The translations under genes and the position numbers were made by a program. A stretch of 64,000 nt of DNA, taken from contig NZ_CP085135.1 of the NCBI RefSeq assembly GCF_020616515.1, positions 3,658,001 to 3,722,000 of the forward strand, read 5' to 3'. This document shows positions 8,749-32,830 of the stretch, in pieces. How positions within the stretch are numbered: the first letter of the stretch is position 1; each line of letters opens with the position of its first letter. Under the pieces are notes generated by a model. The model worked only from the letters and a program-made list of their open reading frames with translations, made no database searches and was not told the DNA's origin. This DNA comes from Mesorhizobium sp. PAMC28654. Its GTDB lineage: Bacteria > Pseudomonadota > Alphaproteobacteria > Rhizobiales > Rhizobiaceae.

Positions 8749-8819
8749 ATCGGCGCCCCATTGTTTGCGACGCCCGAACTGAATGCCTATATCGAGCCGG
8801 TAACTGTCCGGACCTTCCC

Positions 8820-9647
8820 ATGACCGATGCCGTCTTCGATATCGACGCCTATTTCGCCCGCATCGGCCACACCGTCGGGAGCGACGCGTCGCTGGAAACG
8901 CTGCAGGCGCTGCATCAGCGGCACCCGCAAGCGATCCCCTTCGAAAATGTCGATCCTTTCCTAGGCCAGCCGGTGCGGCTTGACCTCGCCTCGTTGCAGA
9001 AGAAGATCATCGCCGATCACCGTGGCGGCTATTGCTTCGAGCACAATCTCATTTTCATGCATGCGCTGAAGGCGCTCGGTTTCGAGGTCAGCGGTCTCGC
9101 CGCGCGCGTGCTATGGGGCCAGCCCGAGGATGCCGTCACCACGCGTAGCCACATGCTGCTGCGTGTGGAACTCGGTGGCCGAACCCACATCGCAGATGTC
9201 GGCTTTGGCGGGATGACCCTGACCGCGCCGTTGCTGCTCGCACCGGGCTTGGAACAGCAGACGCCCCATGAAACGTTTCGCGTCGTCGAGACGGACGATC
9301 ACTTTCGGCTGCAGGCCAATGTTGGCGGCGATTGGCGCACACTCTACCGCTTCGACATGCAGCCGCAGCATGAGATCGATTATTCGGTCGCCAACTATTT
9401 CCTGTCGACCCATCCAACCTCGCATTTCCTGTCCACCATCGTCGCGGCACGCGCGTTGCCCGACCGGCGTTACGCGCTTCGTGGCAACCGGCTGTCGATC
9501 CATCATCTTGGTGGCCGCACCGAGCAGAAGGAGATGGCGACAGCGGCCGAGCTGACGGAGACGCTGGAGCATCTGCTCGAAATCATCATCCCAGACCGTG
9601 CGGCCTTCCAGGCCAAGCTACGGCAGAAGAAAATCGTGGAGTCCTAG
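8820..9647 (+). CDS. Arylamine N-acetyltransferase
   Basis: This 275-aa cytosolic enzyme transfers acetyl from acetyl-CoA to arylamines, hydrazines or related amines. The Cys-His-Asp triad is intact: Cys72 in RGGYCFEHN, His111 in [11 protein letters not shown] and Asp126 in HIADVGFGG. The length is typical. The gene stops 3 bp before the following LLM oxidoreductase starts, so the two are almost certainly co-transcribed. The start at 8820 gives the standard N-terminus with F..YFARIG. Confidence 0.93.
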
Positions 9648-9650
9648 ACA

Positions 9651-10652
<1,002 letters not shown>

Positions 10653-10666
10653 CTATCTGTTTTCCT

Positions 10667-10710
10667 GCAATTCCGGGCGCGGAGCCGTTCCCACTTTTTG
10701 CCGGAATTGC
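10667..10710. repeat. Palindromic REP-like element, copy 2
   Basis: GCAATTCCGG (10667-10676) and its complement CCGGAATTGC (10701-10710) enclose a core containing CCGTTCCCACTTTTTG, close to the core of the element at 63591-63656. It sits 15 bp after the LLM stop codon and may end that transcript. Confidence 0.6.
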
Positions 10711-10781
10711 TTCAGGACACTTTTGCCGACGGCATCCTTTTGCTAAGGGCGGAACATCTCCCTCAAGATCGAGTCCCGCCT

Positions 10782-11576
10782 GTGAAAAATGACCATGACG
10801 CGCGAATGCAATTCGCCATCGAATTGGCGCGGCGCGCGGGCGAACTCGGGCTGAAATATTTCCGCGACCTCGACAGCTTGATCATCGAGAGCAAGGGCCA
10901 CCAGGATCTGGTCTCGGATGGTGACCGCGAGGTGGAGCTGTTCGTGCGCGCCGCCATCGCCGCCGAATACAAGCAGGATGGCATCGTCGGCGAGGAACAT
11001 GCCAGCGTTGCCGGATCGACGGGATATGTCTGGGTGATCGATCCCATCGACGGCACCGCGAATTTCGTGCGTGGGATTCCGGCCTGGGCCGTGGTGATTG
11101 CTTGCGCCAAGGATGGGCAAACCGTCGTCGGCGTGATCCATGAGCCGTCGACCGGCGAGACATTCCATTGCCGGCGTGGCGGTGGCGCATTCGTCAATGG
11201 CAGGCCGATCAAGGCCAGCACCGCCACCAGCCTTGAGGAAGGGTCGGTGGGAACCGGGTTTTCGAACCGGGCCGAGGCCGATAATATCGGCGTGCTGATC
11301 CGCCTCATCCTGGCGGAAGGCGGCGTATTCTTCCGCAATGCGTCCGGCGCGCTGATGCTGGCCTATGCGGCCGCCGGCAGGCTGCTTGGCTATGTCGAAG
11401 AGCACATGAACGCATGGGACTGCCTGGCCGGTCTGCTGCTGGTCGAGGAAGCCGGCGGTGCGATCGTGACACCGGACCCGAAGACGGTGCTGCAGGACGG
11501 AACACTGGTGATCGCCGGTGGAAAGGACATCTTTCCGAAACTGCAAGAGCTCTGCACGAACGCCTTCAAACTCTGA
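10782..11576 (+). CDS. Inositol monophosphatase family protein
   Basis: This Mg2+-dependent sugar/inositol phosphatase of about 264 aa carries the metal-binding GEEH segment, the core motif WVIDPIDGTANFVRGIP and the second-site motif NAWDCLAGLLLVEEAGG. Family members hydrolyse inositol-1-phosphate, histidinol phosphate, 3'-phosphoadenosine 5'-phosphate or fructose bisphosphate; the sequence does not settle which. No start has a good ribosome-binding site. I chose the GTG at 10782, with the ATG at 10806 as the alternative. It is convergent with the LacI-type regulator (15 bp between stops). Confidence 0.88.
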   Translation: MKNDHDARMQFAIELARRAGELGLKYFRDLDSLIIESKGHQDLVSDGDREVELFVRAAIAAEYKQDGIVGEEHASVAGSTGYVWVIDPIDGTANFVRGIPAWAVVIACAKDGQTVVGVIHEPSTGETFHCRRGGGAFVNGRPIKASTATSLEEGSVGTGFSNRAEADNIGVLIRLILAEGGVFFRNASGALMLAYAAAGRLLGYVEEHMNAWDCLAGLLLVEEAGGAIVTPDPKTVLQDGTLVIAGGKDIFPKLQELCTNAFKL

Positions 11577-16735: not shown

Positions 16736-17197
16736 CTACGCCAGCCTGGCCAGCAGCTTCATGAAGGTGGCGATCTCCTTGGGCGAGAGCGGTTCTAGCG
16801 TTTCCCGAGTGATCTCACGCGCGAGCGGGATCAGGCGCTCGATTGCGTCGCGGCCTTCCGCCGTCAGATTGACCAGCAGCCGCCTCTTGTCGACTTCATG
16901 CTTTGAGAGCTCGACCAGGCCGCGCGCCTTCAGCCTGTCGATCACGCCCTTCACCGTCGCAGCGTCCATGGCGATCAGCGTGCCCAGCTGGTTCTGCGAG
17001 GTCTCGCCGACATCGCGCAGCTTGGCGAGTGCCGCGAATTGCGGTGGCGTCAGGTCGGCGATATGCGCGGCGAAGATCGAGACATGGCGCTGGTGCGCCT
17101 TGCGCAGGATGAAACCGACCTGCTCCTGCAGGTGGTAATCGTGATCGTCGGCCTCTTCGGCCTCGACCAGCTTGAGCAGGTTGTCCTCGGCGCTCAC
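16736..17197 (-). CDS. MarR family transcriptional regulator, last gene of the hydroxylase operon
   Basis: This 153-aa winged-helix protein has the recognition region TSQNQLGTLIAMDAATVKGVIDRLKARGLV (about residues 66-95) and a basic wing (HEVDKRRLLVNLT). It starts at a GTG overlapping the stop of the DUF1185 gene (GTGA), so it is translated from the operon message. It probably senses the substrate or an intermediate of this pathway, as MarR proteins of aromatic and nicotinate catabolism do. The ligand is inferred only. Confidence 0.88.
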   Translation of the reverse strand: MSAEDNLLKLVEAEEADDHDYHLQEQVGFILRKAHQRHVSIFAAHIADLTPPQFAALAKLRDVGETSQNQLGTLIAMDAATVKGVIDRLKARGLVELSKHEVDKRRLLVNLTAEGRDAIERLIPLAREITRETLEPLSPKEIATFMKLLARLA

Positions 17198-17778
17198 CGC
17201 AGCCCGTCCCAGGCCTTGATACCGTCGGCCGCGAGGCCGCCCATGCGGTCATGCACGCGGGGGCCGCAGGTCATGGCGAGGCAGAACAGGATCTCCTCGG
17301 GGCGCGGACCATCGCTGATGCCGACTTCCATGGCGTCGAAATGGCTGCGCACATAGGCAGCGTTGATGTGACCGAGCGGCACATCAAGCCGAGAGCCGAA
17401 GGCGCCGACCTTCTTGGCCGACGGCACGATCGCCTTGGCGTCGCCGAGCCGCTCGCGCATGGCGTAGCCGCCCGGTACATGCCAAAGCGCACCGTGCTCC
17501 AGCTCGCCGGCGGTGCCGACGATGGCGCCCTTGCCATAGCCGTCGATCTGTTTCACGTCACCGCCGAGCGCCGCAATCAACCGGTCGGCGAGCAGCAGGC
17601 CGAGCGGCTTGAGGTCGTCCATGGCGCTCTGCAAGTCCTCGACATAGCGTCCAGCGAACGGATTCTTGACCAGCGCCATGGCGGCGGCGCGGCGGCGCGG
17701 CACTTTTGCGACCGGTCCGCCCTCGTGAAATATCTCTTCGGTCAGAACCGCGATCTTGCGGATCGGAAACTCAGGCAT
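17194..17778 (-). CDS. DUF1185 family protein ('amino acid synthesis' family)
   Basis: This 194-aa protein starts at MPEFPIRKIAVLTEEIFHEGG and contains RRRAAAMALVKNPFAGRYVEDL and KGAIVGTAGELEHGALWHVPGG, the hallmarks of DUF1185. The family has no established enzymatic role despite its database name. The gene overlaps UPF0280 upstream by 8 bp and the MarR gene downstream by 4 bp. Co-occurrence with 6-hydroxynicotinate reductase suggests a step after ring reduction, for example ring opening. That is a hypothesis from context. Confidence 0.8.
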   Translation of the reverse strand: MPEFPIRKIAVLTEEIFHEGGPVAKVPRRRAAAMALVKNPFAGRYVEDLQSAMDDLKPLGLLLADRLIAALGGDVKQIDGYGKGAIVGTAGELEHGALWHVPGGYAMRERLGDAKAIVPSAKKVGAFGSRLDVPLGHINAAYVRSHFDAMEVGISDGPRPEEILFCLAMTCGPRVHDRMGGLAADGIKAWDGLR

Positions 17779-18655
17779 GGGCAACTTCCTTCCCTGGACT
17801 TTTGTTGGGCGCGGCAAGCGCCATTGAACCACTGATGCGGGCCTCACCGCCAAGAAACAGCGCCGATGCGGCAATCAGGCCGCGCCGGCGAAAATCTTCG
17901 GCGACAGCAAGGCCATTGTCCAGCGCCCGCGCCACTTCGCCAAGTGCAAGCGTGCCGACGCCTTGTGTCACAAGCCGCGCGCCGAGATCTGTGTCGGGCG
18001 ACAGTTCGTGTGCGGGAGTGCGCTTGATATCGGGATTGCCGGGCAGGTCGACGGCGTTGGCAATGAGCGTCGCCGCCGCATCGGCCTCGGCGCCAGTCCG
18101 CGCCAGCACGGTGACGGCGTCGGCAATGCCGAGTGAGAAGGAGCGGCCGCGCCAGCCACTGGTGGCGACACCACGAGCGCTATCTTCCGAGCGGATCGTG
18201 ATCCGGTCCGCGATGTCGGGGCCGGTGCCGGCGACCGCCAAGCCCATTGACTGGCCCCTGCCGATATGGAGAGCGCAATCGCCGCCATTGTTGACATAGG
18301 CGCGATCGAGCTTGCGACCGGCAAGCAGTGCCGCGAGCATTTCGTCGGCTACCGATCCAGCGACGGCGGCCATCGGCGTGATGAAGCATTCCGCTAGGGG
18401 TATGATGGCTGCTTCCATGCGGCGCGCCGTTGGACCGGCGAAAGTGCGCGGCGCCAGGAAAAATGCCGGGAGCCGCAATTCGGGAAGCTCCTCGACCAGT
18501 TCGATCAGGATCGTCTGGAAGCGCTCGACGGCCTGGCCGTAGGCCAAGCGGCATTCCTGCGCCTCGCCAAAGGCCTCGACGATCAGGTCGATCGGTCCGT
18601 GGTTGAGATGCAGCCGCTTGCCGTCCTGCAACCAATGTACTTGCGGGCCTTCCAT
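17771..18655 (-). CDS. UPF0280 family protein (ApbE-like fold)
   Basis: This 294-aa protein has the UPF0280 core AGSVADEMLAALL, AYVNNGGDCALHI and a GWRGRSFSLGIADAVTVLA stretch. The family is related to the ApbE FAD:protein FMN transferases by fold, but its activity is unassigned. The start ATG shares one base with the stop of the reductase gene (TGATG), so the two are co-translated. In this setting it might flavinylate or otherwise mature the reductase or hydroxylase, or act on a ring intermediate. Neither is shown. Confidence 0.82.
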   Translation of the reverse strand: MEGPQVHWLQDGKRLHLNHGPIDLIVEAFGEAQECRLAYGQAVERFQTILIELVEELPELRLPAFFLAPRTFAGPTARRMEAAIIPLAECFITPMAAVAGSVADEMLAALLAGRKLDRAYVNNGGDCALHIGRGQSMGLAVAGTGPDIADRITIRSEDSARGVATSGWRGRSFSLGIADAVTVLARTGAEADAAATLIANAVDLPGNPDIKRTPAHELSPDTDLGARLVTQGVGTLALGEVARALDNGLAVAEDFRRRGLIAASALFLGGEARISGSMALAAPNKSPGKEVAHA

Positions 18656-20196
18656 CACTCGGCCCCGTTCGAAGTGGAACGGCGCAATTGCGCCAGCGGC
18701 GGCCACGGATTGCCGGCCGGAGAACTCGTGCCGCGACGCGGATTGAGATACTCGCCGCCCTTGGCCACGATGTCCTCGACGCTGCGGATTTCGGCTTCAT
18801 AGCCGCCGAGCCTGACATAGTCGTCGCGGCGCAAGGTGAACTCGATCGGCGCCACCAGCGCCGGGGTCGGCACATAGCCGAAGGCGCCCTCCGGCACCCT
18901 GGTAACATCAACCATCAGCGTGATGCCGCCACCCGGCCAGACATAGACCGGCGCCCCGCCGACAGTCACATAGGTGGTCAGCCCCTGCACCGAACGGGTG
19001 AGATTGACCGGGTTCTCGGTGACGCCGGCGCGCAGCGAACCGCCGGCGCCGCCGATGAACAGCACGGTGCACAGCGCCGGCTCGCAATTGTCCTCGATCA
19101 GTCCGACAGACTTCTGCAGCCGCTCGGGAAACGGCTTCTGTACAGGTTTCAGATCGTCATCGAGCTCGTAATAGGCGAACTGCTCGCCAGTGGTCGAAAC
19201 CATCAGCAGCGACAGGCCCGGGCGCGCGCCCTTCCTGGCGTTCCATTCACCGAGGATCGACAGCGGGTCGGATATGCTGGTGCCGCCCCAGCCGAGGCCG
19301 GGCTCCGACACCTTGAAATAGCGGCCCGGCGTTGAGCGGCGGCCGATGATTTTTATGCCGGTATCCTGCCAGCCCAGCACCTTGCCGGCCTGATGCTCGG
19401 AAACGACGCCGGTGATGTGGTCGTCGACCACCACCACTTCGTCGACCAGGCCGCGCCATTGCGTGGCGAACATGCCGATCGTCGCCGAGCCGCAGCCGAC
19501 GCGCATGCGGTGTTCCTGCTTGCCGTCGATGACAGGTGGTTTGCCGGCTTCGACGATGATGGTGGCGCCGCCGTCGATGGCAAGTTCCACCGGCTTGCGG
19601 TTGCACAGGTTGAGCAGGGCGTCGCAGGTGGCGCGACCCTCCGCCTTGGAGCCACCGGTCAAATGATGCACGCCGCCCAGCGACAGCATCTGCGATCCAT
19701 ATTCGCCGGTGGTGACATGGCCGATCGCCTCGCCTTGCGATCGCACGACAGCCGTTTCGGGTCCGATATGGCGGTCGGTGTCGATCTTCACCTTGACGCC
19801 GCAGTAGGAGAAGATGCCTTCGGTGACCACGGTGACGAGATCGACACCCTCGACCTCCTGGCTGACGATGAAGGGGGCCGGCTTGTAGTCGGGATAGGTG
19901 GTGCCCGCGCCTATTGCCGTGACGAAGCGGCGGCCGGTGTTGACCAGGTCGCCATCCCATGCCTCGCCCTCGGCGACGAAAGGCACCACGGCAGCGCCTG
20001 TCTCGGCAGCGTGATCGAGGATGGTCAGCGGGTCCATCCGCACGATGCGGCCGCCGACATTGCCGTAGCGGTCGCAGGCGCCGGTGCGGCCATCGGCGAT
20101 GTAGCACATGACCGGGCAGGCATCGCAGCGGATCTTCTCGGCCACCAGCTTCTCGCCGGGATCATGGGTTTCGAAGCGTTCGGCAAGCTCGCTCAT
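18655..20196 (-). CDS. 6-hydroxynicotinate reductase-like Fe-S flavoenzyme
   Basis: This 513-aa protein has an N-terminal cysteine cluster KIRCDACPVMCYIADGRTGACD (Cys24, 27, 31 and 41) expected to hold a 4Fe-4S centre. A long conserved body includes GSQMLSLGGVHHLTGG and CTVLFIGGAGGSLRAG. It matches the family named after the Eubacterium barkeri enzyme that reduces 6-hydroxynicotinate to 1,4,5,6-tetrahydro-6-oxonicotinate. Its start overlaps the hydroxylase stop (ATGA). A hydroxylating step directly upstream in the same operon supports an N-heterocycle pathway. The exact substrate is not provable here. Confidence 0.8.
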   Translation of the reverse strand: MSELAERFETHDPGEKLVAEKIRCDACPVMCYIADGRTGACDRYGNVGGRIVRMDPLTILDHAAETGAAVVPFVAEGEAWDGDLVNTGRRFVTAIGAGTTYPDYKPAPFIVSQEVEGVDLVTVVTEGIFSYCGVKVKIDTDRHIGPETAVVRSQGEAIGHVTTGEYGSQMLSLGGVHHLTGGSKAEGRATCDALLNLCNRKPVELAIDGGATIIVEAGKPPVIDGKQEHRMRVGCGSATIGMFATQWRGLVDEVVVVDDHITGVVSEHQAGKVLGWQDTGIKIIGRRSTPGRYFKVSEPGLGWGGTSISDPLSILGEWNARKGARPGLSLLMVSTTGEQFAYYELDDDLKPVQKPFPERLQKSVGLIEDNCEPALCTVLFIGGAGGSLRAGVTENPVNLTRSVQGLTTYVTVGGAPVYVWPGGGITLMVDVTRVPEGAFGYVPTPALVAPIEFTLRRDDYVRLGGYEAEIRSVEDIVAKGGEYLNPRRGTSSPAGNPWPPLAQLRRSTSNGAE

Positions 20197-23142
20197 GTGC
20201 GGGCATCCTTCTCGCGGATGGCGGCGCGGATACGGGTCGGCGTCGCCGGAACCTTGGTGATCAGAACCCCTGTGGCGTGGCGGATGGCATTGAGGATCGC
20301 CGGCGCGGTCGGAATCAGCACATGCTCGCCCAGGCCCTTGGCGCCGAACGGTCCTTCGGGATCGGGAACCTCGATCAGGATGATCTCGATCGGCGGCACA
20401 TCGCCGATCGTCGGGATGAGATAGTCGTGCAAATTTTCGGTGCGGCCTGGGATGTATTCCTCCATCAGCGCCATGCCGATGCCTTGCGCGATGCCGCCTT
20501 CGATCTGGCCCTCGACCAGCAGCGGGTTGATCGCCTTGCCGACATCGTGCGCCGCGGTGATCTTGATCAGCTTCACCGTGCCCAGCTTGAGATCAACCTC
20601 CAGTTCGGCGATCTGCGCGCCATAGCCGTAAACGGCGTAGGGCTTGCCCTGACCCTTGGCATCGAGCGGCAGCGTCGGCGGATCGTAGGTTTCTTGAGCA
20701 CGGAAGACGAAGCCCTCGGCATCCACGTCAAGGCCGGCGAGATCGATGCGGCGGGCTGCCTCGCCCTCGCGGATGACGATCGCGGAGCCGTCCAGCTGGA
20801 GTGATGCCTTTTCAGAAACATTGGCAAAGCGCAGGATCTTTTCACGCAAGGCACGGCCGGCCTTCTCGGCGGCCTTGCCAGTGACGAAGGTCTGGCGCGA
20901 CGCGGAGGTCTTGCCGGCGTCCGGAGTTATCCCTGTGTCGGCGCTCTTCAGCCGGAATCTTTCCAGCGGCAGGCCAAGCGCATCGGCGCAGATCTGGGAG
21001 ATGACGGTGTTCGAGCCCTGGCCGATATCGACGGCGCCCTGGTGCAGGACGATGTCGCCCGAAGCCGAGATGCCGACCCGGATGGTCGACGGATTGGGCA
21101 GCGAGGTGTTGCCGCAGCCATACCAGCAGGAAGCGACGCCAACGCCCCGCTTTTTGTTTACGTTGGCGCTGTTGAACGCATCCGTGTCTGCAAGCGCGCG
21201 GGACCAGTGCGGCCGTAGCGACTCCAGACATTCGGCGATGCCTACGCCAGACTCCAATCTCTGACCGGTCACCGTTTCAGAACCATCGCGAAGGCAGTTC
21301 TTCAAGCGAAAATCGAGGCGGTCCATGCCAAGCTTAACCGCCAACTCGTCATACAGCGTCTCTTGCATGATGGTTGCCTGCGGCACGCCGAAGCCACGAA
21401 ACGCGCCGGAGATCGGGCCGTGCGTGTGAATGGCGCGGCCCTCGGCGCGGTAGTTCGGCGTCGCGTAGGCCGGAGGCATGAACCGGAACGCGGTTGGCGA
21501 CGGTCGGACCCCAGCTTGCATAGGCGCCAGTGTTGAAATCGCCTTCGAAGACCATGCCCATCACGTGACCGTCGGCATCGGCGCCGATGGTCGCCTTCAT
21601 GTCAGCGGGATGGCGCTTGGTGGTCGACATCATCGATTCATTGCGGGTGTAGGCGAGCGCAGCCGGCCGTCCCGTCTTCAGCGCCACAAGGCCGATCAGC
21701 GGCTGCAGCGAAACGTCGAGCTTCGAGCCGAAGCCGCCTCCGGTCGCGGTCGGCACGATACGCACCTTGTCGACGGCAAGGCCAAGCACCTTTGCCGTCT
21801 CGTCGCGATCCATGTAGGGCGCCTGCGTGCAGGCGACGACGACCAGCGTGTCGCCATCCAGATAAGCATAGCCGGCTTCCGGTTCGATATAGGCATGCTC
21901 GACATAGGATGTGTCGATGGCGCCAGACACGGTGAACGCCGCGTCAGCAAGGGCAGCTTCAGGATCGCCGCGCTCGACGAAGCCGGAGGTCAGCAGGTTC
22001 GTCGGGCGGTCATCATGGATCAGCGCAGCACCATCGGCCTGCGCTTCGCAAGGCTGGAGAAAATGCGGCAATTCCGTCCAGCGGATAGGGAAATCCGACA
22101 GGTCGAGATCGAGAATCGCCTCGCGCTCGCCGGCTACCAGCGCCACCGCCTCGCCACGAAGCCGCGAAAACCCTTCGGCCAGCGCCGGCTGGTCGGCGAA
22201 CGGACTGATGACGCCAAAGCAATTCTTTCCGGGAATATCGGCAGCTGTGAAGACACCGGCGATGCCGGGATGGGCTTTTGCCCAGCCTTCCAGGTCGCCG
22301 AAGACAAAACTGGCGTGGTAGTGCGGCGAGCGGACAACCAGCACGGAAAGCGCATCGGCGGGGAAGGAATCGCCGCCAAACTTTTCGTCGCCAGTGACTT
22401 TTGGAATGCCGTCGAGCCGGACTGGGGATGAGCCTACGGCGTGGCCTGAAGTTGGCATTCTGTGGTCAAGGTTGCGATCCAACTGGTGATGTTGGCGCTG
22501 CCCCTCACCCTTACCCTCTCCCCGTGGAGCTAGACTCTTCTCCCCGTCACTATACGGGGACAAGGTGCCGGCAGGCGGATGAGGGGCAGCGCCGTCATTC
22601 GACGATTTATCTGAGAACCGCGCCGCATCCATCACCGCCGCGATGATCTTCCGGTAGCCGGTGCAGCGGCACAGAATGCCGCCCAGCACGTCCTGCACCT
22701 CGGTCTCGGTCGGACTGGGCGTCTTGTCCAGCAATGCGGTCGCCGCGACCAGCAGCGCCGGCGTGCAGATGCCGCATTGCGCCGCGCCATGGGCCAGGAA
22801 AGAAGCCTGCAGCGCCGACAGCCGGCCGTTGGCGAGACCTTCCACCGTCGTCACAGATGCCCCGGCGGCGGAGGCCGCCGGCATCAGGCAGGCGCAGACG
22901 GGATCGCCGTCAACCAGCACCGTGCAGGCGCCGCAGTCGCCGGCGTCGCAGCCGACCTTGGTGCCGGTCAGCCGCAATTCATCGCGCAACACCAAGGACA
23001 GCCGGCGCAGCGGTGGCACATTGACCGAGACGGCTGATCCATTGACCTCGAAGGCGATGTCAGCACGCTCAAGGCCGAGGCCCGGCTGAAGTCCTATCCG
23101 GTCAGGCAGAGCTTCACTCACTTCAGGCCGAACCTGGCTCAT
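20193..23142 (-). pseudogene. Fused 2Fe-2S/molybdopterin hydroxylase, xanthine dehydrogenase family, frameshifted
   Basis: Residues 1-175 are a 2Fe-2S subunit with Cys65/70/73/85 and Cys123/126/158/160 clusters. They are fused through a linker to a molybdopterin-binding domain ([27 protein letters not shown]). The frame breaks near 21466-21472: the first frame reads NRVPVHASG, and the sequence continues as [10 protein letters not shown] in another frame, as if two bases were lost or one gained. Restored, the protein would be about 983 aa. Either the gene is broken, so the pathway is dead, or there is a base-calling error. Linker residues 184-216 come from a palindromic repeat. The gene overlaps both neighbours, and hydroxylation of nicotinate or a similar ring is the proposed role. 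Confidence 0.8.
22494..22593. repeat. Palindromic element inserted in frame within a coding sequence
   Basis: GGCGCTGCCCCTCA (22494-22507) and its exact complement (22580-22593) bound a 100-bp element with an inner hairpin (CCCCGT.. near 22542 with ACGGGG near 22555). Read on the minus strand it encodes residues 184-216 of the Mo hydroxylase with no stop. The surrounding residues are a variable inter-domain linker. Confidence 0.75.
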
Positions 23143-24002
23143 GCCGCCACCATCCCAGGGTCGCTCATCTGTCCGGAGGCTTGCAGCACGGCGCGGGCAA
23201 CAATCTCGCGCACGGCATCGAGCCTATACTCCGCGCTGCCACGCACGTCGGCTATCGGTGACAACTCAGCTATCGGCGCCGACAGGACCGCATCGGCGAG
23301 TCCGCCGTCCGCTGCCAGCCCGCGCAACGCGGACTCGACACCGACAAGCCGCTTGGCCACCGCGGAACAGGAACCGACGGCGACGGCCGCTTCAATAACA
23401 GTTCCGTGCTCCACAACTAGGCGGGCCGCGACCATCGCGATCGAAATGACGAGATAGCGCCGCGCGCCAAGCTTGACGAAAGCAGACATACCGGTGGTCG
23501 CAGGCTTCGGCACGCGGATGGCGGCGACCATCTCGCCGCGCTGCAGGGCTGTGCGGCGGTTTCCGAGAATGAAATCCTGCAGCGGCAGATGACGTGTCGT
23601 CATCACCGACCGCAGTTCGACCTCAGCGTCGAGGACGAGCAGGCCAGGCACGCCGTCGGCGGCTGGCGATGCATTGCAGAGATTGCCGGCGATGGAAGCG
23701 ACATTCTGGATTTGCACTGAACCAACTTCCCGTGCCGCCTGTTTCAGCGCATCGAAAGCCGGCGGCAAGGGATGGCGGATGATGTCGGTCCAGGTCGTGC
23801 GAGCGCCGATGACAAAATGGTCATCCGTCTCGACGATGCCGCGCAATTCAGCGAGACCGTTGATGTCGAGGACATCATCGCGAAACGGCTTTGTGCCCTG
23901 AGCGGGATAGAAATCGGTGCCACCAGCAAGAATGCGCCACGCGCCATCGCCAAGCAAAGCGAGCGCTTCGTCGACCATGGTGGGTTTCGCGTAACGGATC
24001 AC
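23139..24002 (-). CDS. Mo hydroxylase FAD-binding subunit (xanthine dehydrogenase subunit M family)
   Basis: This 287-aa protein passes electrons from the Fe-S centres to an acceptor. FAD-site motifs are [14 protein letters not shown] near residue 30 and [21 protein letters not shown] near 98, as in CoxM/NicF-type subunits. The start is a GTG at 24002 ([14 protein letters not shown]) with GGAAGG 7 nt upstream, preferred over the ATG at 24047. Its stop overlaps the start of the fused Fe-S/Mo gene (ATGA). It is the first gene of the six-gene operon and is divergent from pncA. Confidence 0.9.
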
Positions 24003-24075
24003 GCTTTGCCTTCCAGAAAAGAGGCCTTCGCAAAACTTGCCGAGCAATCTTTCCGGTATTCGAGCCGGCCAGATT

Positions 24076-24091
24076 CATTCGTATGCAAATG
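24076..24091. promoter_or_regulatory. Candidate MarR-type operator between the hydroxylase operon and pncA
   Basis: CATTCGTATGCAAATG is a quasi-palindrome (12 of 16 positions symmetric, CATT-N8-AATG) in a locally AT-rich patch of the 274-bp divergent intergenic region. Its size and position suit a MarR-family site. No second copy was found to support it. Confidence 0.3.
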
Positions 24092-24276
24092 ATATCAAGC
24101 CGGCACGAATTGTCAAAGCCAGAGTTTTGCGCCGTGCTGCTGCCGGCGCCGCCGGCAAGCATTTGTTGGCCATCGGAGGTTGACGCAGCCGGCCATCTGG
24201 TCAAGTTTCTGCGTCCGGTCGCATCGGCGGCATCTTTCACTTGGAGCCTGACCCCAACAGAGAAGAAGGAGGCCCC

Positions 24277-24891
24277 ATGGCCGACGAAGCGCTTGTTGTC
24301 ATCGACCTGCAAAACGACTTCTGCCCGGGCGGCGCCCTGGCGGTCGCCGGTGGCGATGAGATCGTGCCGCTCGTCAACGATATGATCCGCCGTACCGAGC
24401 ATGTCGTGTTGACCCAGGACTGGCACCCCGCCGGCCATTCGAGCTTTGCCTCCAGCCATCCCGGTTCGCAGCCTTTCACGACGATCGACATGCCCTATGG
24501 CCAGCAGACGCTGTGGCCGGATCATTGCATCCAGGGCAGCCTGGGCTCGGATTTCCATTCCGGTCTCGCCTGGACAAAGGCCGAGCTCGTCATCCGCAAG
24601 GGATTTCGACCGGCCATCGACAGCTATTCGGCCTTCTTCGAGAACGACAGGGCAACGCCGACCGGCCTTGCCGGCTATCTGCGCGAGCGCGGCATCGACA
24701 CGCTGACCCTGGTCGGGCTGGCGACCGACTTTTGCGTTGCCTTTTCAGCGCTGGATGCCGTCAGCCAAGGGTTCAAGACCACCGTGCGGCTCGATGCCTG
24801 TCGCGCTATCGATCTCAATGGTTCGCTCGAGACGATGCTGCAGCGAATGCGCGATGCCGGCGTGACGCTTGAAGACCATTTGTCGGACTGA
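24277..24891 (+). CDS. pncA: Nicotinamidase/pyrazinamidase
   Basis: This 204-aa cytosolic amidohydrolase converts nicotinamide to nicotinate plus ammonia. The catalytic triad is Asp10 (VVIDLQNDF), Lys108 (VIRKGF) and Cys153 (ATDFCVAFSALDA). The metal site is Asp48-Trp-His50 with His54 (DWHPAGH). The start is fixed by AAGGAGG 7 nt upstream. It is divergent from the hydroxylase/6-hydroxynicotinate reductase operon, so it could feed nicotinate into that pathway as well as into NAD salvage through pncB at 33 kb. Confidence 0.95.
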   Translation: MADEALVVIDLQNDFCPGGALAVAGGDEIVPLVNDMIRRTEHVVLTQDWHPAGHSSFASSHPGSQPFTTIDMPYGQQTLWPDHCIQGSLGSDFHSGLAWTKAELVIRKGFRPAIDSYSAFFENDRATPTGLAGYLRERGIDTLTLVGLATDFCVAFSALDAVSQGFKTTVRLDACRAIDLNGSLETMLQRMRDAGVTLEDHLSD

Positions 24892-26350: not shown

Positions 26351-27070
26351 TCAACCCACGCCGACATAGCGGCGAACCGCCGAAGGGTCGGCGCGCAGCT
26401 CCTCGACATCGACCGTCTCGCGGTTGCGGCCGTTCTCGATGAACGCGACGCGGTCGGCGACCGACAGCACGGCATCGACCCGCTGCTCGACCAAAATGGT
26501 CGAGACACCCATGTCGCGCAGCTTCGACACCGTCTCGCGTATCTTGGCGATCATCGACGGCATCAGCCCTTCGGTCGGCTCGTCGAGCAGCAGCACCTGC
26601 GGTTCGAGGCAGAGCGCACGCGCCATGGCCAGCATCTGCTGTTCGCCGCCGGACAAGGTGCCTGAGCGTTGCCTCAACTGCTGGCGCAGCAATGGAAAAA
26701 GGTCGAGGACGTTTTCCCGCACGGCCTTGCCCTTGCCGCGCGCCATCAGGCCGATCTCGATGTTTTCGGCCACCGTCATCTCGGCGAACAGCCGCCTGCC
26801 TTGCGGCACGTAGGCGACGCCGGCCTTCGGCACCTCATGCGCCGGCAGGCCGGTCAATTCCTGGTCAGAGAGCCTGATCGAGCCGGCGCTTGCCGGAACC
26901 AGTCCCATGATCGCTTTCAGCGTGGTCGTCTTGCCGGCGCCGTTGCGGCCGAACAGGCAGAGCACTTCGCCCTTGTTGAGCACAAGATCGAGGCCGTAGA
27001 GAACCTGGACCGCGCCATAAAAGCAATCGAGCCCGGAGATGGTCAACGCCTTTGATGGTACCTCGGTCAT
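26351..27070 (-). CDS. livF: Branched-chain-type ABC transporter ATPase LivF
   Basis: This 239-aa ATPase has Walker A GRNGAGKTTT, signature LSGGEQQMLA, Walker B VLLLDEPTEGL and switch region ILVEQRVD, the LivF pattern. It is the last gene of an operon whose reading frames overlap by ATGA at each ATPase and permease junction. It works with LivG as an ATPase heterodimer at the inner membrane. Confidence 0.92.
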   Translation of the reverse strand: MTEVPSKALTISGLDCFYGAVQVLYGLDLVLNKGEVLCLFGRNGAGKTTTLKAIMGLVPASAGSIRLSDQELTGLPAHEVPKAGVAYVPQGRRLFAEMTVAENIEIGLMARGKGKAVRENVLDLFPLLRQQLRQRSGTLSGGEQQMLAMARALCLEPQVLLLDEPTEGLMPSMIAKIRETVSKLRDMGVSTILVEQRVDAVLSVADRVAFIENGRNRETVDVEELRADPSAVRRYVGVG

Positions 27071-27792
27071 GGGGCTGTCCCCAGATAGGCGTCCTGAACC
27101 GCCGCGTTTTCGCGGATCGCCTCGGGCGTGCCTTCGGCCAGGATCCTGCCGGCGTTGAAGACGGTGATGCGGTCGGCAAGTTGCATGACAACGGGCATGT
27201 TGTGCTCGATCAGGAGCACGGTGGCACTCACCGCGATCTCGCGCACCAGGGTGATGAAACCGTCGATCTCGCTGTCGGCCAGGCCCTGCGTCGGCTCGTC
27301 GAGGATCAGCAGGCGCGGCTTCAGCGCCAGGCCCATCGCCACTTCCAGCAGTCGCTGGTGACCGTAGGACAACTGCCCGGCCGGCGTATGGGCACGGTCG
27401 GCAAGACCGGTGCGTTCCAGCGCCGCCATGACGCCGGCACGCACCGCATCCTTCGAGCGGCCATCACTCAGGGTCCGCTGCACCGGCAGCGCGACATTAT
27501 CGTAGGCGGTGAGGTTGGCGAACACGCTGGTGATCTGGAATGTGTAGGCGATGCCCTGGCGGACCCGGACATAGGCCGGCAGGCTGGTAATATCCGCGCC
27601 ATCAAAGACGATCATGCCTGACGACGGCTGGATGCGGCCGCTGACAAGGCTCACGAAGGTGGTCTTGCCAGCGCCGTTCGGGCCGATGACAGCGCGGATC
27701 TCGCCGGGCATCAGCGCGAAATCGACGCCGTCGACAGCGCGCAGGCCGCCGAAATTGCGCGACAGGCCCCTGGTGGTCAGCAGCGGCATCAT
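27067..27792 (-). CDS. livG: Branched-chain-type ABC transporter ATPase LivG
   Basis: This 241-aa ATPase has Walker A GPNGAGKTTF, signature LSYGHQRLLEVA and Walker B LLILDEPTQGLADSE. The LSYG variant of the signature is normal in LivG proteins. The start MMPLLTTRGLSRNFGG at 27792 overlaps the permease stop; the second ATG (27789) is the alternative. It pairs with LivF. Confidence 0.92.
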   Translation of the reverse strand: MMPLLTTRGLSRNFGGLRAVDGVDFALMPGEIRAVIGPNGAGKTTFVSLVSGRIQPSSGMIVFDGADITSLPAYVRVRQGIAYTFQITSVFANLTAYDNVALPVQRTLSDGRSKDAVRAGVMAALERTGLADRAHTPAGQLSYGHQRLLEVAMGLALKPRLLILDEPTQGLADSEIDGFITLVREIAVSATVLLIEHNMPVVMQLADRITVFNAGRILAEGTPEAIRENAAVQDAYLGTAP

Positions 27793-28751
27793 GGCAGCCA
27801 CCCCAGCCAGCGTTGCCGGACGGTGCCAAGAATACCCTTGGGGAAAAACAGCACCAGAAGGATCAGCGCTATGCCGACGATCAGCAGATAGGCGGAGGTG
27901 TAGCCGCTGGTGACGTCGATGACATAGTACATGAACAGCGTGCCGATCAGTGGTCCAAGCGTCGTGGCCGCGCCGCCCAGCAGCACCCAGAGCAGCGGCA
28001 GAATCGAATATTGGATCGAAGCGAAGTTCGAACCGACATAGCCGAACAGCAGCGCATAGGCGGCACCGGACGCCGCGCAGATGGTGCCGGACAGAACGAC
28101 GGCAGCGAGCTTGTTGGAGAAAGTGTCGTATCCCAGCATCTTCGTGCGCTCCTCGTTCTCGCGGATGGCGACCAGCACGCGGCCATATCGCGAACGAACG
28201 ATTGCGAGGGTGACGAGCAGCACGAGCGAGAACAGCGCCAGCGCACTCATGTAGCGCACCGTCGGATTGGTGAGGTCGAGCGAGGTCGCGCCGAAGGTGA
28301 GGACCCGCGCCGGCTGCGGCACGACCATGCCCTGGTCGCCGCCGGTCCACGACGAGAAATAGAGGATGATCAGATAAAAGACCTGCGCGAACATCATGGT
28401 GACGATCATGAAGGCGACACCTGATGTGCGCAGCGCCAGCAGGCCAATGACCAGTGAAAGAACAACACCACAGGCAAGGCCGGCGGCGAATGCCGCCGGC
28501 ACGTTCCAGCCGAGTTGGATGACGGCAAGGCCGGCGCCATAGAGCCCGGCGGCGAAGAACATGGCATGGCCGAGGCTGAGCAGGCCGACATAGCCGAACA
28601 GCATGTTGTAGCCCATGGCAAAGACCGCCAGAACCATGATGCGGGCGAGCAGGCCGTGATAGTACTCGGGCAGCAGGAAGCTCAACACGAAGAGCAGCGC
28701 AATAACGCCGAGATGTAAGGCGTAGGCCTTTGCCGGCGAAGCTTCGCTCAT
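27789..28751 (-). CDS. livM: Branched-chain-type ABC transporter permease LivM
   Basis: This 320-aa inner-membrane permease has about eight membrane segments. The LivM loop GLLALRTSGVAFMIVTMMFAQ and the ATPase-contacting segment AIRENEERTKMLGYDTF are both present. It is coupled by overlapping codons to LivH upstream and LivG downstream. Confidence 0.9.
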   Translation of the reverse strand: MSEASPAKAYALHLGVIALLFVLSFLLPEYYHGLLARIMVLAVFAMGYNMLFGYVGLLSLGHAMFFAAGLYGAGLAVIQLGWNVPAAFAAGLACGVVLSLVIGLLALRTSGVAFMIVTMMFAQVFYLIILYFSSWTGGDQGMVVPQPARVLTFGATSLDLTNPTVRYMSALALFSLVLLVTLAIVRSRYGRVLVAIRENEERTKMLGYDTFSNKLAAVVLSGTICAASGAAYALLFGYVGSNFASIQYSILPLLWVLLGGAATTLGPLIGTLFMYYVIDVTSGYTSAYLLIVGIALILLVLFFPKGILGTVRQRWLGWLP

Positions 28752-29629
28752 CGAGCCTGTGTCCCGAACAGGCCTTGCGGCCGGAACACCAGCACCATGG
28801 CCACGAGGAGCGTTGCGATGATCTTGGCCAATGTCGGTGAGAAGAACATCGAGATGATGCCGTCGGACATCCCGATCAGCACGGCGGCGACGACGGTGCC
28901 GCGCAGCGAACCAAGACCCCCGATAATGACGACGATGAACGACAGGAGCAGCGGGTCCTGCCCCATCAGGTAATGCGCCTGGCTGATCGGCACGATCAGC
29001 ACGCCAGCAATGGCCGCCAGCATGGCGCCGAGCGCGAAGACGCCGCCATAGACGCGACCCACGGGAATGCCGAAGGCCTGCGCCGTCTCGCTGTCATATT
29101 GGGTGGCGCGCATGATGAGGCCGATCTTCGTGCGGGTCAGCACCAGCCATGTCGCGATCAGCAGCAGCGCGGAGGCAGCGATGATCGACAGCTTGTAGCC
29201 GGAATAGCCGAACCAGGGCAGCAGGATGCGATAGGTGAAGGGCGGCTGCACGGGGCGCGCCTCCGGACCGTAGAAGGTCAGCGCCAGTTGCTGGATGATG
29301 TAGAGCATGCCGATGGTGGCGACGATGGTGGCTTCCGGATTGTAGTTGAGCCGGCGCAGCACCAGCCGTTCGGCGACCAGCGCAATGGCGCCGACGATCA
29401 GTGGCGCAATCACCAGCGCTGCCAGGAAGCCTAGCGCGGGGTGGCCACCGATGGCCGTGGTGATCGCCCAGGCGAGCACGGCGCCGAGCATGAAGAACTC
29501 GCCATGGGCGACATTGACCACGCGCATGACGCCGAACACCAGCGACAAGCCAAGCGCCGTCAGCGCCAGCACGGCCGATGTGACGAGGCCTTCGAGGGTG
29601 GCGAGGAGGAGATGGGGCCCGAAGTGCAT
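28748..29629 (-). CDS. livH: Branched-chain-type ABC transporter permease LivH
   Basis: This 293-aa permease contains LGLSLVFGVMRVVNVAHGEFFMLGA and GGLGSLRGTVVAA, both standard for LivH. I chose the ATG at 29629 (MHFGPHLLL), because the 33 codons readable upstream are translated repeat sequence. It is separated from the binding-protein gene by 297 bp occupied largely by a palindromic repeat. Transcription through that structure would be needed if the five genes form one operon. Confidence 0.9.
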   Translation of the reverse strand: MHFGPHLLLATLEGLVTSAVLALTALGLSLVFGVMRVVNVAHGEFFMLGAVLAWAITTAIGGHPALGFLAALVIAPLIVGAIALVAERLVLRRLNYNPEATIVATIGMLYIIQQLALTFYGPEARPVQPPFTYRILLPWFGYSGYKLSIIAASALLLIATWLVLTRTKIGLIMRATQYDSETAQAFGIPVGRVYGGVFALGAMLAAIAGVLIVPISQAHYLMGQDPLLLSFIVVIIGGLGSLRGTVVAAVLIGMSDGIISMFFSPTLAKIIATLLVAMVLVFRPQGLFGTQAR

Positions 29630-29655
29630 GGTTATACGCAGGCAGGCGCCAAGTG

Positions 29656-29894
29656 CACCCCCCTCTGTCCTGCCGGCCCCGGCCCTCCGCTGTCGCTCCG
29701 GGCGTTCGCCGTTCGGAAAGCCAAGCAATTGGCTTTCCGTCCGCTACGCGGACCACATCTCACCCCCCTCAAGGGGGGAGATTGGCGGTTCCTGCAGAGG
29801 CGGCTACCCACCAACCTTGGCGAATGCCGAAAGCGGTGAAGACAGCCTATCTCCCCCCTTGAGGGGAAGATGTCCGGCAGGACAGAGGGGGGTG
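29656..29894. repeat. Mosaic palindromic repeat inside the ABC transporter operon
   Basis: A perfect 21-bp inverted repeat (29656-29676 with 29874-29894, CACCCCCCTCTGTCC.. type) encloses further arms around CCCCTCAAGGGGGG. The left arm is interrupted by about 78 bp carrying its own hairpins: GGAAAGCCAA-GCAA-TTGGCTTTCC (29715-29738) and GTCCGC-TAC-GCGGAC (29739-29753). It is the same family as 53900-54057. No coding sequence is seen here. Confidence 0.75.
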
Positions 29895-29926
29895 GCTTGG
29901 CGCTCACGCTAGCTGGGTGGCTAAGC

Positions 29927-31231
29927 CTAAAGCGCCTGCGTCGTGTAATCCCCCTCGGCCTCGTAAAGTCCGTCCTCGATCTTGGTCTTGTGGACGACCT
30001 TCAGCTTGCCGCCTTCCACCTTGGAGATGTTCTGGATGCCAAAGCACTGGTGGATCTTGCCATTGAAGGTTTTTGCGCCCTGCGGATGCTCCGGACCTTC
30101 GGCGAAAGCGGTCAGCGCTTCGGTCGCCTCGACCAGCTTGGCGCGGTCTTCCGGGCCCTTGTAGCCGGCGTCTTCCATCGCCTTCTTGACGACATAGAGT
30201 GTCTCCCAGCAGCCGAACATGTGAGCGGCGGTGGAGACATCCTTGGGGTCGCCGACGGCCGCGCCATTGTCGTCGATGCCGACGGCGGCGCGATAGGCTT
30301 TCTGGGCGGCGGAATCATCGGGCTGGGTATAGCGCGGCGAGCCCTCCCAGAAATGGCTGCCGTCGAGGAACTCAAGGCCGGGGCTGTTGATGTCGGTGGC
30401 TTCGAGCGAATCGATGAAACCGAACAGCTGCGGCCGGTTGGAGCCGTAGAACTCGCCGAGTTCCTTGACGAAGGTGAGCACCGCCGGGCCGACCATGACG
30501 TGGTAGATCACCTCGGTCTCGGCGGGGATTTGCGGGAAGTATTTGGTGAAGGACGATTCCGTCGGCGGGATGGCGATCTGGGCGATGACATCAGCGCCCT
30601 GCGCCTTCAGCGCCGGCGGCAGGTAGTTGCGATGGTCGTAGCCGAACGCGAAATCCGGGTAGATCATGGTGACCTTCTTGCCGACATTGGCTGATATCCA
30701 CGGCGCCATCGACTGGATCTGGCTCTTCACGTCGGTGATGCCGGGCTGGAAGACGTAGCGATTGAGTTTGGTCGAGGCGACATGGTGACCTTCGCTAACG
30801 ACGAAGTAAGGGATCTTGGCCTCGCCGGCGGCTGGCGCGGAGCCGATCACGACATGCGAGAACAGCGTGCCGAAGACAATGTCGGTCTTGTGCTGGGTGG
30901 CGAATTTGGCGACCACTTCGGCGCCACGAGCCGGATCGGTTCCGTCATCCTCGATGATCACTTCGACGGGGCGCCCATTGATGCCGCCGGCGGCGTTGAT
31001 CGCCTTGATGGCGGCCGCCGTGGTCTTTTCATACCAACGGCCATAGGCGGCGCCGATACCGGTGCGGTGCGACTGGAAGCCGATCTTGACCGGCGCCGAG
31101 CTCTGCGCCTGGGAATAGCGGACGAAGCCCGGCGCGGTGATCAGGCCAGCGGTGGCGGCCAGTCCCTTCAGCGCCGTGCGGCGGGTGAGGCCGGTTTTCG
31201 AGAGATCGAAGAACCCATTCTTGTCAGTCAC
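29927..31231 (-). CDS. ABC transporter substrate-binding protein, branched-chain type (Tat signal)
   Basis: This 434-aa periplasmic binding protein has a twin-arginine signal (LTRRTALKGLAATAGLITAP, about residues 15-34) and cleavage near SQAQ. The mature part begins VKIGFQSHRTGIGAAYGRWYEK and has type I binding-protein features (AINAAGGINGRPVEVIIEDDG). The ligand may not be an amino acid; members also bind amides, urea and aromatic acids. The GTG at 31231 has AGGGGAA about 5 nt upstream and is chosen over an ATG at 31309. Proximity to the hydroxylase operon makes a pyridine carboxylate worth testing. Confidence 0.85.
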   Translation of the reverse strand: MTDKNGFFDLSKTGLTRRTALKGLAATAGLITAPGFVRYSQAQSSAPVKIGFQSHRTGIGAAYGRWYEKTTAAAIKAINAAGGINGRPVEVIIEDDGTDPARGAEVVAKFATQHKTDIVFGTLFSHVVIGSAPAAGEAKIPYFVVSEGHHVASTKLNRYVFQPGITDVKSQIQSMAPWISANVGKKVTMIYPDFAFGYDHRNYLPPALKAQGADVIAQIAIPPTESSFTKYFPQIPAETEVIYHVMVGPAVLTFVKELGEFYGSNRPQLFGFIDSLEATDINSPGLEFLDGSHFWEGSPRYTQPDDSAAQKAYRAAVGIDDNGAAVGDPKDVSTAAHMFGCWETLYVVKKAMEDAGYKGPEDRAKLVEATEALTAFAEGPEHPQGAKTFNGKIHQCFGIQNISKVEGGKLKVVHKTKIEDGLYEAEGDYTTQAL

Positions 31232-31384
31232 GGCAGTTCCCCTGTTTTTGAGTTTTGACCAATGGCTGGGACGAAACGGATCGCCCCCCAGATGAGGGTG
31301 AGATTGCATGTGTACAAACTAAATCACCAAAGCCGAAGCGTGGCAAGCGAGCTTCCCCAAAGGCAATGGAGGCCAGCGCTCGTC

Positions 31385-32830
31385 TCACCCGGCAGCCGGC
31401 GTGGCAAGCAACCAGAGACCGAACACCGTGTAGCCGATCATCAGCAGGGTGAGCGGAAACTGGCTGATCGCGGCGCCAGCGGGGCCCGGGTGCAACCGCC
31501 AGGCGAAGCCGTGGGCGAGGAGCACCGCGAGCATATGACCGAGGATGATGGCGCCGGCCTGAAAATTCCACAGCCACCAGGCGGAGGCTGCGCCCGCGAC
31601 GATACCGGCCTCGATTTGCATGTCGGCGGTTCCAAACAGGTTCCAGCCCAGCGCGAACGGGTCGGAAAGGGCGGCAATCGCATATTGGCCATCGACAAGC
31701 AGCGCCGTCAGATAGTGCGCGAAATGATAGGCGAGCGCGATCGGCACGATCGACCAGACCAGCAGACCGGCGGCCTGATCGAGGGCATCGGGGCTGCTGG
31801 CAAGCCGCTGGCCCACGAAAACGGCAAGCATGAACACAGTCGCCAGCAGAACGAACGTCACGACAAGTCCCAGGCTGCCGATGCCCATCACCGCCGTGCG
31901 TCCCGGAAACTCGAGCGGGTTGATGCCGAACAGCCCGAGCCAGAAGAACGTCTTCGACAGGCCGTCGAACGATACCGATGACAGCGCAAGCAGCAGGAAA
32001 GCGATGCCGCTCACCGGCAGCGGCTCGGCATCGAGCAGTTTCGCGCCCGGCCAGCACAGCCTGATCCGGCCATCCTCGGCGCGTTCGACGACGGCAAAGC
32101 GCGCCACCATCGAAAAGAAGACGCTCAGGAATTCACCTCGCCGGCTCCAGTCCTTGTGGCCGAACACCAGCATGCAAAGGAAGCCGACCAGCCAGTAGAG
32201 CCCGGCGACGACCGCCAGCCGCCACGGGTCGTCGGGAGCCGGGTCAATGAGTTCAAACCAGGCGAAAGCGAAGAAGAGCACGAAGGCCGGCCAGCAGCCG
32301 AGCCATTCAGGGAGCCGCCATACCGGTCCTTTGTCCCCGCCAGACAGGCGAGAGACGATACGGCACGGCCCATACCACGGGTTGAGCCACGACCAGAGGT
32401 CGCCAAGAAGGCCCTGCATCAACGCCAGCCCGACCCACAGCAGCGTCCATATGGTCAGCGGCAGCGGATTGGAAAGCGGATCGCGGCTGCCGAAGATACC
32501 GGCGGCGACAAGCACTGCAAAGCCGGCAAAGGATATGGTGCTGACGGCCGCCCGGGCGCCGTCGCCGAATGCGAAAAGCCACAGGCGGCGCCGTCCGAAG
32601 CGATCGAGGACATCGGGCGACAGCGCCGAGAGCATGAGGAAGCTGACGGCGACGGCAAAAGCGCCGGCGGCCACGTAGTAGCCGGTGGGCAGAAGCAAGA
32701 CATGGCCACGGTCGGAAGCGTGAGCGAAGGCCGCCGCGGGCCAGGCAAACAGCGCGACCAGAGCGAGGCGGTAAAAAAACTGAACTGACGTACGACTACC
32801 TTCTACGGCGCTTCCCTCTGTCCTGCCCAA
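31385..32830 (-). CDS. Multi-pass membrane protein of unknown function
   Basis: This protein of about 481 aa has a signal-like N-terminus (FFYRLALVALFAWPAAAFAHASDRGH) and 10-12 membrane helices with conserved-looking motifs WLNPWYGPCR and AYHFAHYLTALLVDGQYA, where several His lie in a helix. The only in-frame start near the signal is a TTG at 32830, lying in a short piece of the GGCAGGACAGAGGG repeat. A weak memory links it to integral-membrane organophosphate (fenitrothion) hydrolases, which I cannot support from sequence. It may be co-transcribed with pncB, which ends upstream of it on the same strand (13 bp apart). Confidence 0.7.
   Translation of the reverse strand: MGRTEGSAVEGSRTSVQFFYRLALVALFAWPAAAFAHASDRGHVLLLPTGYYVAAGAFAVAVSFLMLSALSPDVLDRFGRRRLWLFAFGDGARAAVSTISFAGFAVLVAAGIFGSRDPLSNPLPLTIWTLLWVGLALMQGLLGDLWSWLNPWYGPCRIVSRLSGGDKGPVWRLPEWLGCWPAFVLFFAFAWFELIDPAPDDPWRLAVVAGLYWLVGFLCMLVFGHKDWSRRGEFLSVFFSMVARFAVVERAEDGRIRLCWPGAKLLDAEPLPVSGIAFLLLALSSVSFDGLSKTFFWLGLFGINPLEFPGRTAVMGIGSLGLVVTFVLLATVFMLAVFVGQRLASSPDALDQAAGLLVWSIVPIALAYHFAHYLTALLVDGQYAIAALSDPFALGWNLFGTADMQIEAGIVAGAASAWWLWNFQAGAIILGHMLAVLLAHGFAWRLHPGPAGAAISQFPLTLLMIGYTVFGLWLLATPAAG

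Follow-up and report, generated by a model that had tools for sequence, protein, structure and literature searches.

Eubacterium barkeri reportedly ferments nicotinate through 6-hydroxynicotinate reductase and tetrahydro-oxonicotinate (THON), a route associated with Alhapel and the year 2006, and the scheme for Azorhizobium is said to proceed by decarboxylation and then to glutarate. The 2012 paper PMC3511419 reports the THON route for aerobic Azorhizobium, together with a conserved proteobacterial cluster that contains two unknown proteins and the gene for the third step; we infer that this gene encodes the enamidase, following the E. barkeri route cited there. The same paper puts the identity between the reductase of Bradyrhizobiaceae SG-6C, the closest studied cluster, and the E. 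barkeri enzyme at 42%. Here we present an analysis of a 64,000-nucleotide stretch of the Mesorhizobium sp. PAMC28654 genome (hereafter the window; bases 3658001–3722000 of the single 6.70-Mb contig NZ_CP085135.1), which carries on its minus strand, from 24047 to 16736, an operon of six genes encoding a flavin adenine dinucleotide (FAD) subunit, a 2Fe-2S/Mo hydroxylase, a homologue of 6-hydroxynicotinate reductase, a UPF0280 protein, a DUF1185 protein and a MarR-family regulator.

From gene content and comparison with related genomes, we consider it likely that this cluster specifies THON-type catabolism of nicotinamide and nicotinate, with the ring opened in this lineage by HyuA and HyuB (HyuAB), UPF0280 acting as a partner of the reductase, repression by MarR, and probable loss of the route in this strain. 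A preliminary description of the same DNA had regarded such a route as surprising in an aerobe; since the route and its conserved cluster had already been reported by 2012 (PMC3511419), that surprise is not new. The window belongs to a soil Mesorhizobium and carries genes of a known yet little-studied route for the breakdown of vitamin B3 (nicotinate).

The reductase (18655–20196, minus strand) is 95–97% identical to Mesorhizobium reductases and takes its name from the 95%-identical ones, which are annotated as '6-hydroxynicotinate reductase'. It matched no Pfam or NCBIfam family at E ≤ 0.001, and a sequence-based search for solved relatives returned none that was convincing. A PF08669-like stretch shows up in 23 members out of 29, with a best value of 6.6e-4; the window reductase scores 16.4 bits for it, below the cut-off of 25.9. 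Cys24, Cys27, Cys31 and Cys41 are invariant across 29 sequences and probably form a 4Fe-4S site; a covalent flavin site at GSAT (residues 236–239) was considered and rejected, as the threonine is not invariant. In most rows, the window reductase is 69–73% identical to reductases that lie in clusters with enamidase or NicAB-like genes. The enzyme is widespread, with at least 591 stretches confirmed among the named genomes. It was found in 33 of 398 Pseudomonadota genomes, one match being marginal (G022; a single 35-residue match, E 4.9e-4) and removed to leave 32, and in 60 of 367 alphaproteobacterial genomes (E ≤ 1e-60), a sample in which the best three to six first-look candidates per genome were scored and orthologs may have been missed. 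One reductase (G016 C1:2969823–2971252, in L075) reads in two overlapping frames, and the reductase stretches of L123 and L125 contain a stop codon.

No enamidase ortholog was found in the window's own genome, in which the best match is 35% identical over 94 residues (E 1.4e-4). The genome encodes a ferredoxin-NADP reductase (FNR), HyuA and HyuB at 3749595–3754435 (positions 6595–11435 of stretch L156), about 68 kb from the operon, and these three are 90–96% identical to genes that, in other Mesorhizobium, immediately follow the operon. HyuA comprises domains PF05378, PF01968 and PF19278, carries the ATP-site motifs DVGGT and DMGGT, and scores 433 bits against the solved N-methylhydantoinase and 377 bits against 5-oxoprolinase; the enamidase query scores 368 bits against the solved enamidase 2VUN. 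In intact relatives, HyuB retains the H-x2-D-x21-H spacing of metal ligands (H105-D108-H130 in the protein of L091). A second HyuA-like gene of this genome (G000:C1:655314–658569) appears to be split into two halves about 1.2 kb apart.

Across genomes the two enzymes replace one another. Counting HyuA and not HyuB, and with orthologs in the Pseudomonadota sample set at 61% identity or more for HyuA (the next best at 45% or less) and 64% or more for enamidase, the 32 reductase genomes of that sample comprise 17 with HyuA and 17 with enamidase, two having both and none neither. In the 60 alphaproteobacterial reductase genomes the corresponding numbers are 32, 26, none and two, and the two genomes with neither are incomplete assemblies (G598, 70% complete; G678, 86%). 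When the samples are merged, HyuA is present in 46 of 87 genomes and enamidase in 41, with two carrying both and two neither (Fisher p 7e-20, for genomes that are not independent), so that in 85 of 87 the reductase occurs together with an enamidase or with an ATP-dependent lactamase. The pattern suggests that two unrelated enzymes serve as alternatives for the ring-opening step and hardly ever occur together, and most likely the THON lactam would be opened by whichever is present. Changes between the two states were counted on a reductase tree of 71 of the 87 rows (G016, with its two-frame reductase, and 15 reductase genomes were omitted), of which 69 have a single state and the two genomes with both enzymes carry none. 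The states change at least seven times, and for the enamidase label well-supported branches force five changes.

An alternative is that HyuAB does not open THON at all and instead works on a different lactam or carboxylates some intermediate further along, its exclusion from enamidase genomes reflecting lineage only. Carboxylases do occur in the HyuA family (it has matches to acetophenone and acetone carboxylases), close HyuA relatives are found in three genomes that lack the reductase, and two genomes hold both enzymes. Set against this, just two of the 87 reductase genomes lack both enzymes and just two have both, and at least seven changes on the tree argue against a single lineage split; we therefore hold this alternative to be unlikely. 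Three genomes of one family (G496, G589 and G672) carry, without a reductase, a HyuA 59–61% identical to that of the window genome, possibly a hint of another lactamase substrate. If HyuAB does open THON, the ring-opening enzyme is named for roughly one in two of the bacteria sampled that carry the nicotinate route, and ATP-free and ATP-dependent enzymes have been swapped repeatedly at a single pathway step. In the window strain, the later, ring-opening enzyme is most likely HyuAB, encoded outside the window. UPF0280 and DUF1185, which the preliminary description had taken as substitutes for the known later enzymes, were dismissed from that role, as both go with the reductase under either type of ring opening.

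Gene neighbourhoods were compared in 158 stretches, comprising the window, six plasmid records, two sets of 31 and 40 stretches from further genomes, and 80 loci of the named collection, in which the best-scoring loci are skewed toward Mesorhizobium and Rhodobacterales kin. Counts of downstream genes omit 11 loci with less than 2.5 kb downstream (leaving 147), and two-sided counts omit 27 loci with less than 7 kb on either side (leaving 131). The preliminary description had proposed to look at whether UPF0280 and DUF1185 recur beside the reductase, and here the two differ: in all 147 loci, UPF0280 is the next gene after the reductase and on its strand, whereas DUF1185 is directly downstream in 123. 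The genome sets of UPF0280 (E ≤ 1e-8) and reductase (E ≤ 1e-60) are also identical, being the same 60 of the 367 alphaproteobacterial genomes. UPF0280 (17771–18655 in the window, minus strand; NF003322, 384 bits, cut-off 290) seems to be an obligate partner of this enzyme.

As to its role, we propose that UPF0280 serves the reductase as an obligate partner or maturation factor. Of 43 UPF0280 members compared with PF02424 (ApbE), 19 reach E ≤ 1, the best of them 1.7e-4, and the window protein stays under the gathering score (16.4 bits versus 25.6). Profile comparison (hhalign) with a first ApbE protein encoded in the window's genome gave E 0.031 (probability 1.6%), and with a second E 0.001 (21.5%). 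The GGD, ATSG and D-x3-T motifs of ApbE flavin transferases align in UPF0280 (with the second of these ApbE proteins), and D192 and T196 are invariant; by contrast, the HxxDPxTG loop, which we take to be an ApbE feature, was not seen. The only related solved protein, 2O34 (E 3e-12), is labelled 'hypothetical protein'. Because of this remote similarity to ApbE and the exact genomic link, our hypothesis is that UPF0280 may take part in flavin-related maturation. This would be the first function for UPF0280, a family without known function that is tied so tightly to one reductase that a role could be tested by co-expression. In two SAR116 stretches (L147 and L155), UPF0280 is 33–34% identical to that of the window and the cluster holds a second set of FAD/FeS hydroxylase-like genes.

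DUF1185 (17194–17778, minus strand) matches PF06684 'AA_synth' with 234 bits and PDB entry 3byq with 197 bits. Its relatives HcdD and TgnF belong to pathways for coumarin and trigonelline, respectively, and an effect of HcdD was sought without success (PMC7913881); two relatives of DUF1185 have been solved, one with ABC (ATP-binding cassette)-transporter gene neighbours (PMC2954203). Tentatively, and with more doubt than confidence, these elements can be combined: the proteobacterial 6-hydroxynicotinate reductase would be a two-protein system in which UPF0280, with an ApbE fold that keeps the D-x3-T Mg site but no longer has other ApbE motifs, inserts the reductase flavin or holds it in place, opening of the THON ring would fall to an ATP-dependent lactamase that has traded places with the ATP-free enamidase on many occasions, and DUF1185 might act on 2-(aminomethylene)glutarate or 2-formylglutarate.

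The substrate is indicated by neighbouring genes. PncA nicotinamidase (24241–24891, plus strand; NF008623, 214 bits, cut-off 174) is divergent from the operon, as the preliminary description had stated. PncA lies near the reductase in 54 of the 158 stretches, for the most part divergently in Mesorhizobium kin, but also divergently in L115, L128 and L129 and on the same strand in L073, L074, L126 (in which it scores above the family cut-off) and L204. PncB nicotinate phosphoribosyltransferase is encoded in the window (32844–34148, minus strand; NF003704, 517 bits, cut-off 379; TIGR01514, 293 bits, cut-off 270) and beside NicAB-like genes in L058–L060. Linkage of PncA or PncB in several distinct arrangements supports nicotinamide or nicotinate as the substrate. 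Among the 131 well-flanked loci, PncA was found in 48, the FAD subunit in 107, the FeS-Mo hydroxylase in 106, LivH in 94, HyuA in 46, enamidase in 24 and FNR in 32 (21 with HyuA, eight with enamidase and three with neither). The type of hydroxylase varies by lineage, being FAD plus fused FeS-Mo in most and NicA/NicB-like in others, with three changes on the reductase tree. It might therefore be asked whether the cluster breaks down some other N-heterocycle, either a different pyridine carboxylate or a ring related to it, and owes its nicotinate names to inherited annotation: the hydroxylase family is broad and no substrate-specific model passed, hydroxylases are unlike between lineages, and most loci that are not from Mesorhizobium kin showed no PncA close by. 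The separate arrangements with PncA or PncB speak against this, as does the company of enamidase and NicAB-like genes that the same reductase keeps in other families, and such a substrate seems quite improbable to us. The order proposed in the preliminary description, from nicotinamide through nicotinate and 6-hydroxynicotinate to THON, is backed by this context and by the ring-opening enzymes found with the reductase in 85 of 87 genomes. Its observation that the window holds no NicC-type monooxygenase also stands at the level of PF01494, presumably the Pfam family of NicC, which has 28 matches genome-wide and none in the window.

Two genes of the route appear broken in this assembly. The hydroxylase is spread over two frames of the minus strand, 21349–23142 (two 2Fe-2S domains and part of MoCoBD_1; PF00111, PF01799 and PF02738) and 20193–21521 (the C-terminal part; PF20256, 247 bits, and the end of PF02738), and the homologous reading of the N-terminal part stops at about 21469. 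All 46 aligned hydroxylase genes of relatives have two extra bases at about 21468 that are missing in the window. Among 47 compared hydroxylase genes a frame change occurs in two, those of the window and of L087 (Mesorhizobium loti UFLA 01-765); the latter (3454–6113) is separate from the break in the window. The HyuB gene of the window genome is short of five bases kept in 19 of 19 relatives, and is the sole broken one among 26. When 39 gene loci (33 in the window and six in L156, the stretch with HyuAB) were compared with proteins of four relatives, 37 were unbroken, the exceptions being the hydroxylase and HyuB. The ratio of nonsynonymous to synonymous substitution rates (dN/dS) is not raised on the window's side (0.07–0.12 for the hydroxylase and 0.03–0.10 for the halves of HyuB, like values between relatives), indicating that the breaks are recent or else assembly errors; relaxed selection as proof of an old gene loss was rejected on the same ground.

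With both genes frameshifted, the nicotinate route in the window strain is probably off or lately lost, barring assembly errors. That both frameshifts are such errors and the pathway is whole in the living strain, which would bear on the loss of the pathway and on no other claim, is quite possible, if somewhat short of an even chance: the breaks were judged from the assembly alone and dN/dS is not raised, but only two of 39 loci are broken, both of them pathway genes, and a loss of five bases is unlike a simple homopolymer slip. With two pathway genes apparently broken, growth of the window strain on nicotinate may fail as a test, and the strain is a poor choice for such an assay. The hydroxylase also carries, in frame within the linker that joins its 2Fe-2S and MoCo parts, a stretch with a dispersed palindromic repeat (22490–22625, minus strand; core TCCCCGTATAGTGACGGGGAGA), other copies of which lie at L156:548–599 and L157:7749–7803. 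This linker measures 78–114 residues in 12 genes and 41–50 residues in 29 (41 measured, including the window, of 48 examined).

All five junctions of the operon overlap, as seen by eye: ATGA at 23142–23139 (FAD subunit/hydroxylase), ATGA at 20196–20193 (hydroxylase/reductase), TGATG at 18657–18653 (reductase/UPF0280), eight bases at 17778–17771 (UPF0280/DUF1185) and GTGA at 17197–17194 (DUF1185/MarR, MarR starting with GTG). These overlaps and the gene families, assigned by Pfam and NCBIfam (the reductase by its 95%-identical relatives), agree with the preliminary description, which had overlooked the break that splits the hydroxylase. The operon begins with the FAD subunit (23139–24047 as the longest open reading frame, with homology from about 24002; PF00941, 141 bits; PF03450, 54 bits) and ends with MarR (16736–17197; PF01047, 46 bits). 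Between pncA and the FAD gene, a candidate promoter, TTGACA-N16-TATCAT, can be read at 24089–24116 (minus strand), and the imperfect inverted repeat ATTTGCATACGAAT (24077–24090, minus strand) lies over its -10-like hexamer. A pattern for this repeat is present in 40 of 48 pncA-FAD intergenic stretches, the window included, and the 8-mers CTTTGACA and ATGATATC occur in 43 and 41 of the 48; ATTTGCATACGAAT is a candidate MarR operator.

Further genes on the same strand, overlooked in the preliminary description along with PncB, encode a Liv-type ABC transporter (26351–31309), a block that is conserved beside the reductase. It comprises a LivF-like ATPase (26351–27070), a LivG-like ATPase (27067–27900, start approximate), the permeases LivM (27789–28751) and LivH (28748–29650, start approximate), and a periplasmic binding protein (29927–31309; PF13458, 172 bits). 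Between the transporter and PncB lies a gene for a multi-pass membrane protein (31385–32830, minus strand) that had no match in Pfam or NCBIfam; it recurs beside the transporter genes, with a homologue in 28 of the 131 well-flanked reductase loci.

In the pathway that we propose, the Liv-type transporter would import the substrate, PncA would convert nicotinamide to nicotinate, and the FAD and fused 2Fe-2S/Mo enzyme, judged by family and context, would convert nicotinate to 6-hydroxynicotinate. The reductase with UPF0280 would then, by homology, reduce 6-hydroxynicotinate to THON, with electrons probably from NADPH through the linked FNR. HyuAB in this lineage, using ATP, or enamidase in others would open THON to 2-(aminomethylene)glutarate, which would release ammonium to give 2-formylglutarate, and decarboxylation and glutarate would follow as in the Azorhizobium scheme. 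MarR may repress the operon from the site that covers the promoter. The whole fermentative route of E. barkeri, later enzymes included, is by comparison very improbable: the reductase is common to that route, as are enamidase homologues in other lineages, but its later enzymes were neither noticed in the window nor seen to recur in clusters (no genome-wide search for them was made), and the published aerobic scheme (PMC3511419) leads to glutarate.

Several observations weigh against the proposed pathway. For SG-6C, PMC3511419 reports no metabolite past 6-hydroxynicotinate, and THON was undetected. Among 307 reductase-free genomes, HyuA occurs in three (at 56% identity or more; eight at E ≤ 1e-220) and enamidase in one, five genomes with HyuA at 50–54% identity, all without the reductase, having been removed from the stricter count. 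HyuA fits the caprolactamase model best, yet scores under its equivalog cut-off (507 versus 1000 bits). The hydroxylase matches xanthine-dehydrogenase and aldehyde-oxidoreductase models below their cut-offs, with no nicotinate-specific model among them, and DUF1185 is missing beside the reductase in 24 of 147 loci.

As far as our searches of the open-licence literature show, the exchange of HyuAB and enamidase and the exact link of UPF0280 to the reductase are new: no paper was found there that joins hydroxynicotinate with hydantoinase or that mentions UPF0280. With the E. barkeri fermentation, the window shares the 6-hydroxynicotinate reductase family and, in the proposed pathway, the THON intermediate; it differs in that its host is an aerobe whose genome is without enamidase. 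ATP-dependent lactamases of the CapAB/OplAB type resemble HyuAB in their Hydantoinase_A domains, the two DxGGT motifs of HyuA, the H-x2-D-x21-H spacing of HyuB and the proposed lactam chemistry; the metal-ligand residues of CapB were taken from PMC8453981, and PMC11033972 reports that OplAB acts on delta-valerolactam, which, like THON, is a six-membered lactam. They differ in that HyuA reaches half of the caprolactamase cut-off and in the proposed substrate, THON. Closest is the cluster of Azorhizobium caulinodans, Bradyrhizobium and Bradyrhizobiaceae SG-6C (PMC3511419), which has in common with the window the reductase, an ABC transporter and two conserved unknown proteins, and presumably the nicotinate hydroxylase step, for which the window has a Mo hydroxylase of another type; we infer that these two are UPF0280 and DUF1185. 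In another family of the order (L058–L068), clusters hold NicAB-like genes, reductase, UPF0280, DUF1185, an ABC transporter and MarR, with enamidase where the stretch reaches. Relative to the SG-6C type, the window has an FAD subunit and a fused 2Fe-2S/Mo hydroxylase in place of a NicAB-like one, lacks enamidase, has its HyuAB genes at a separate locus of the genome and shows another transporter layout.

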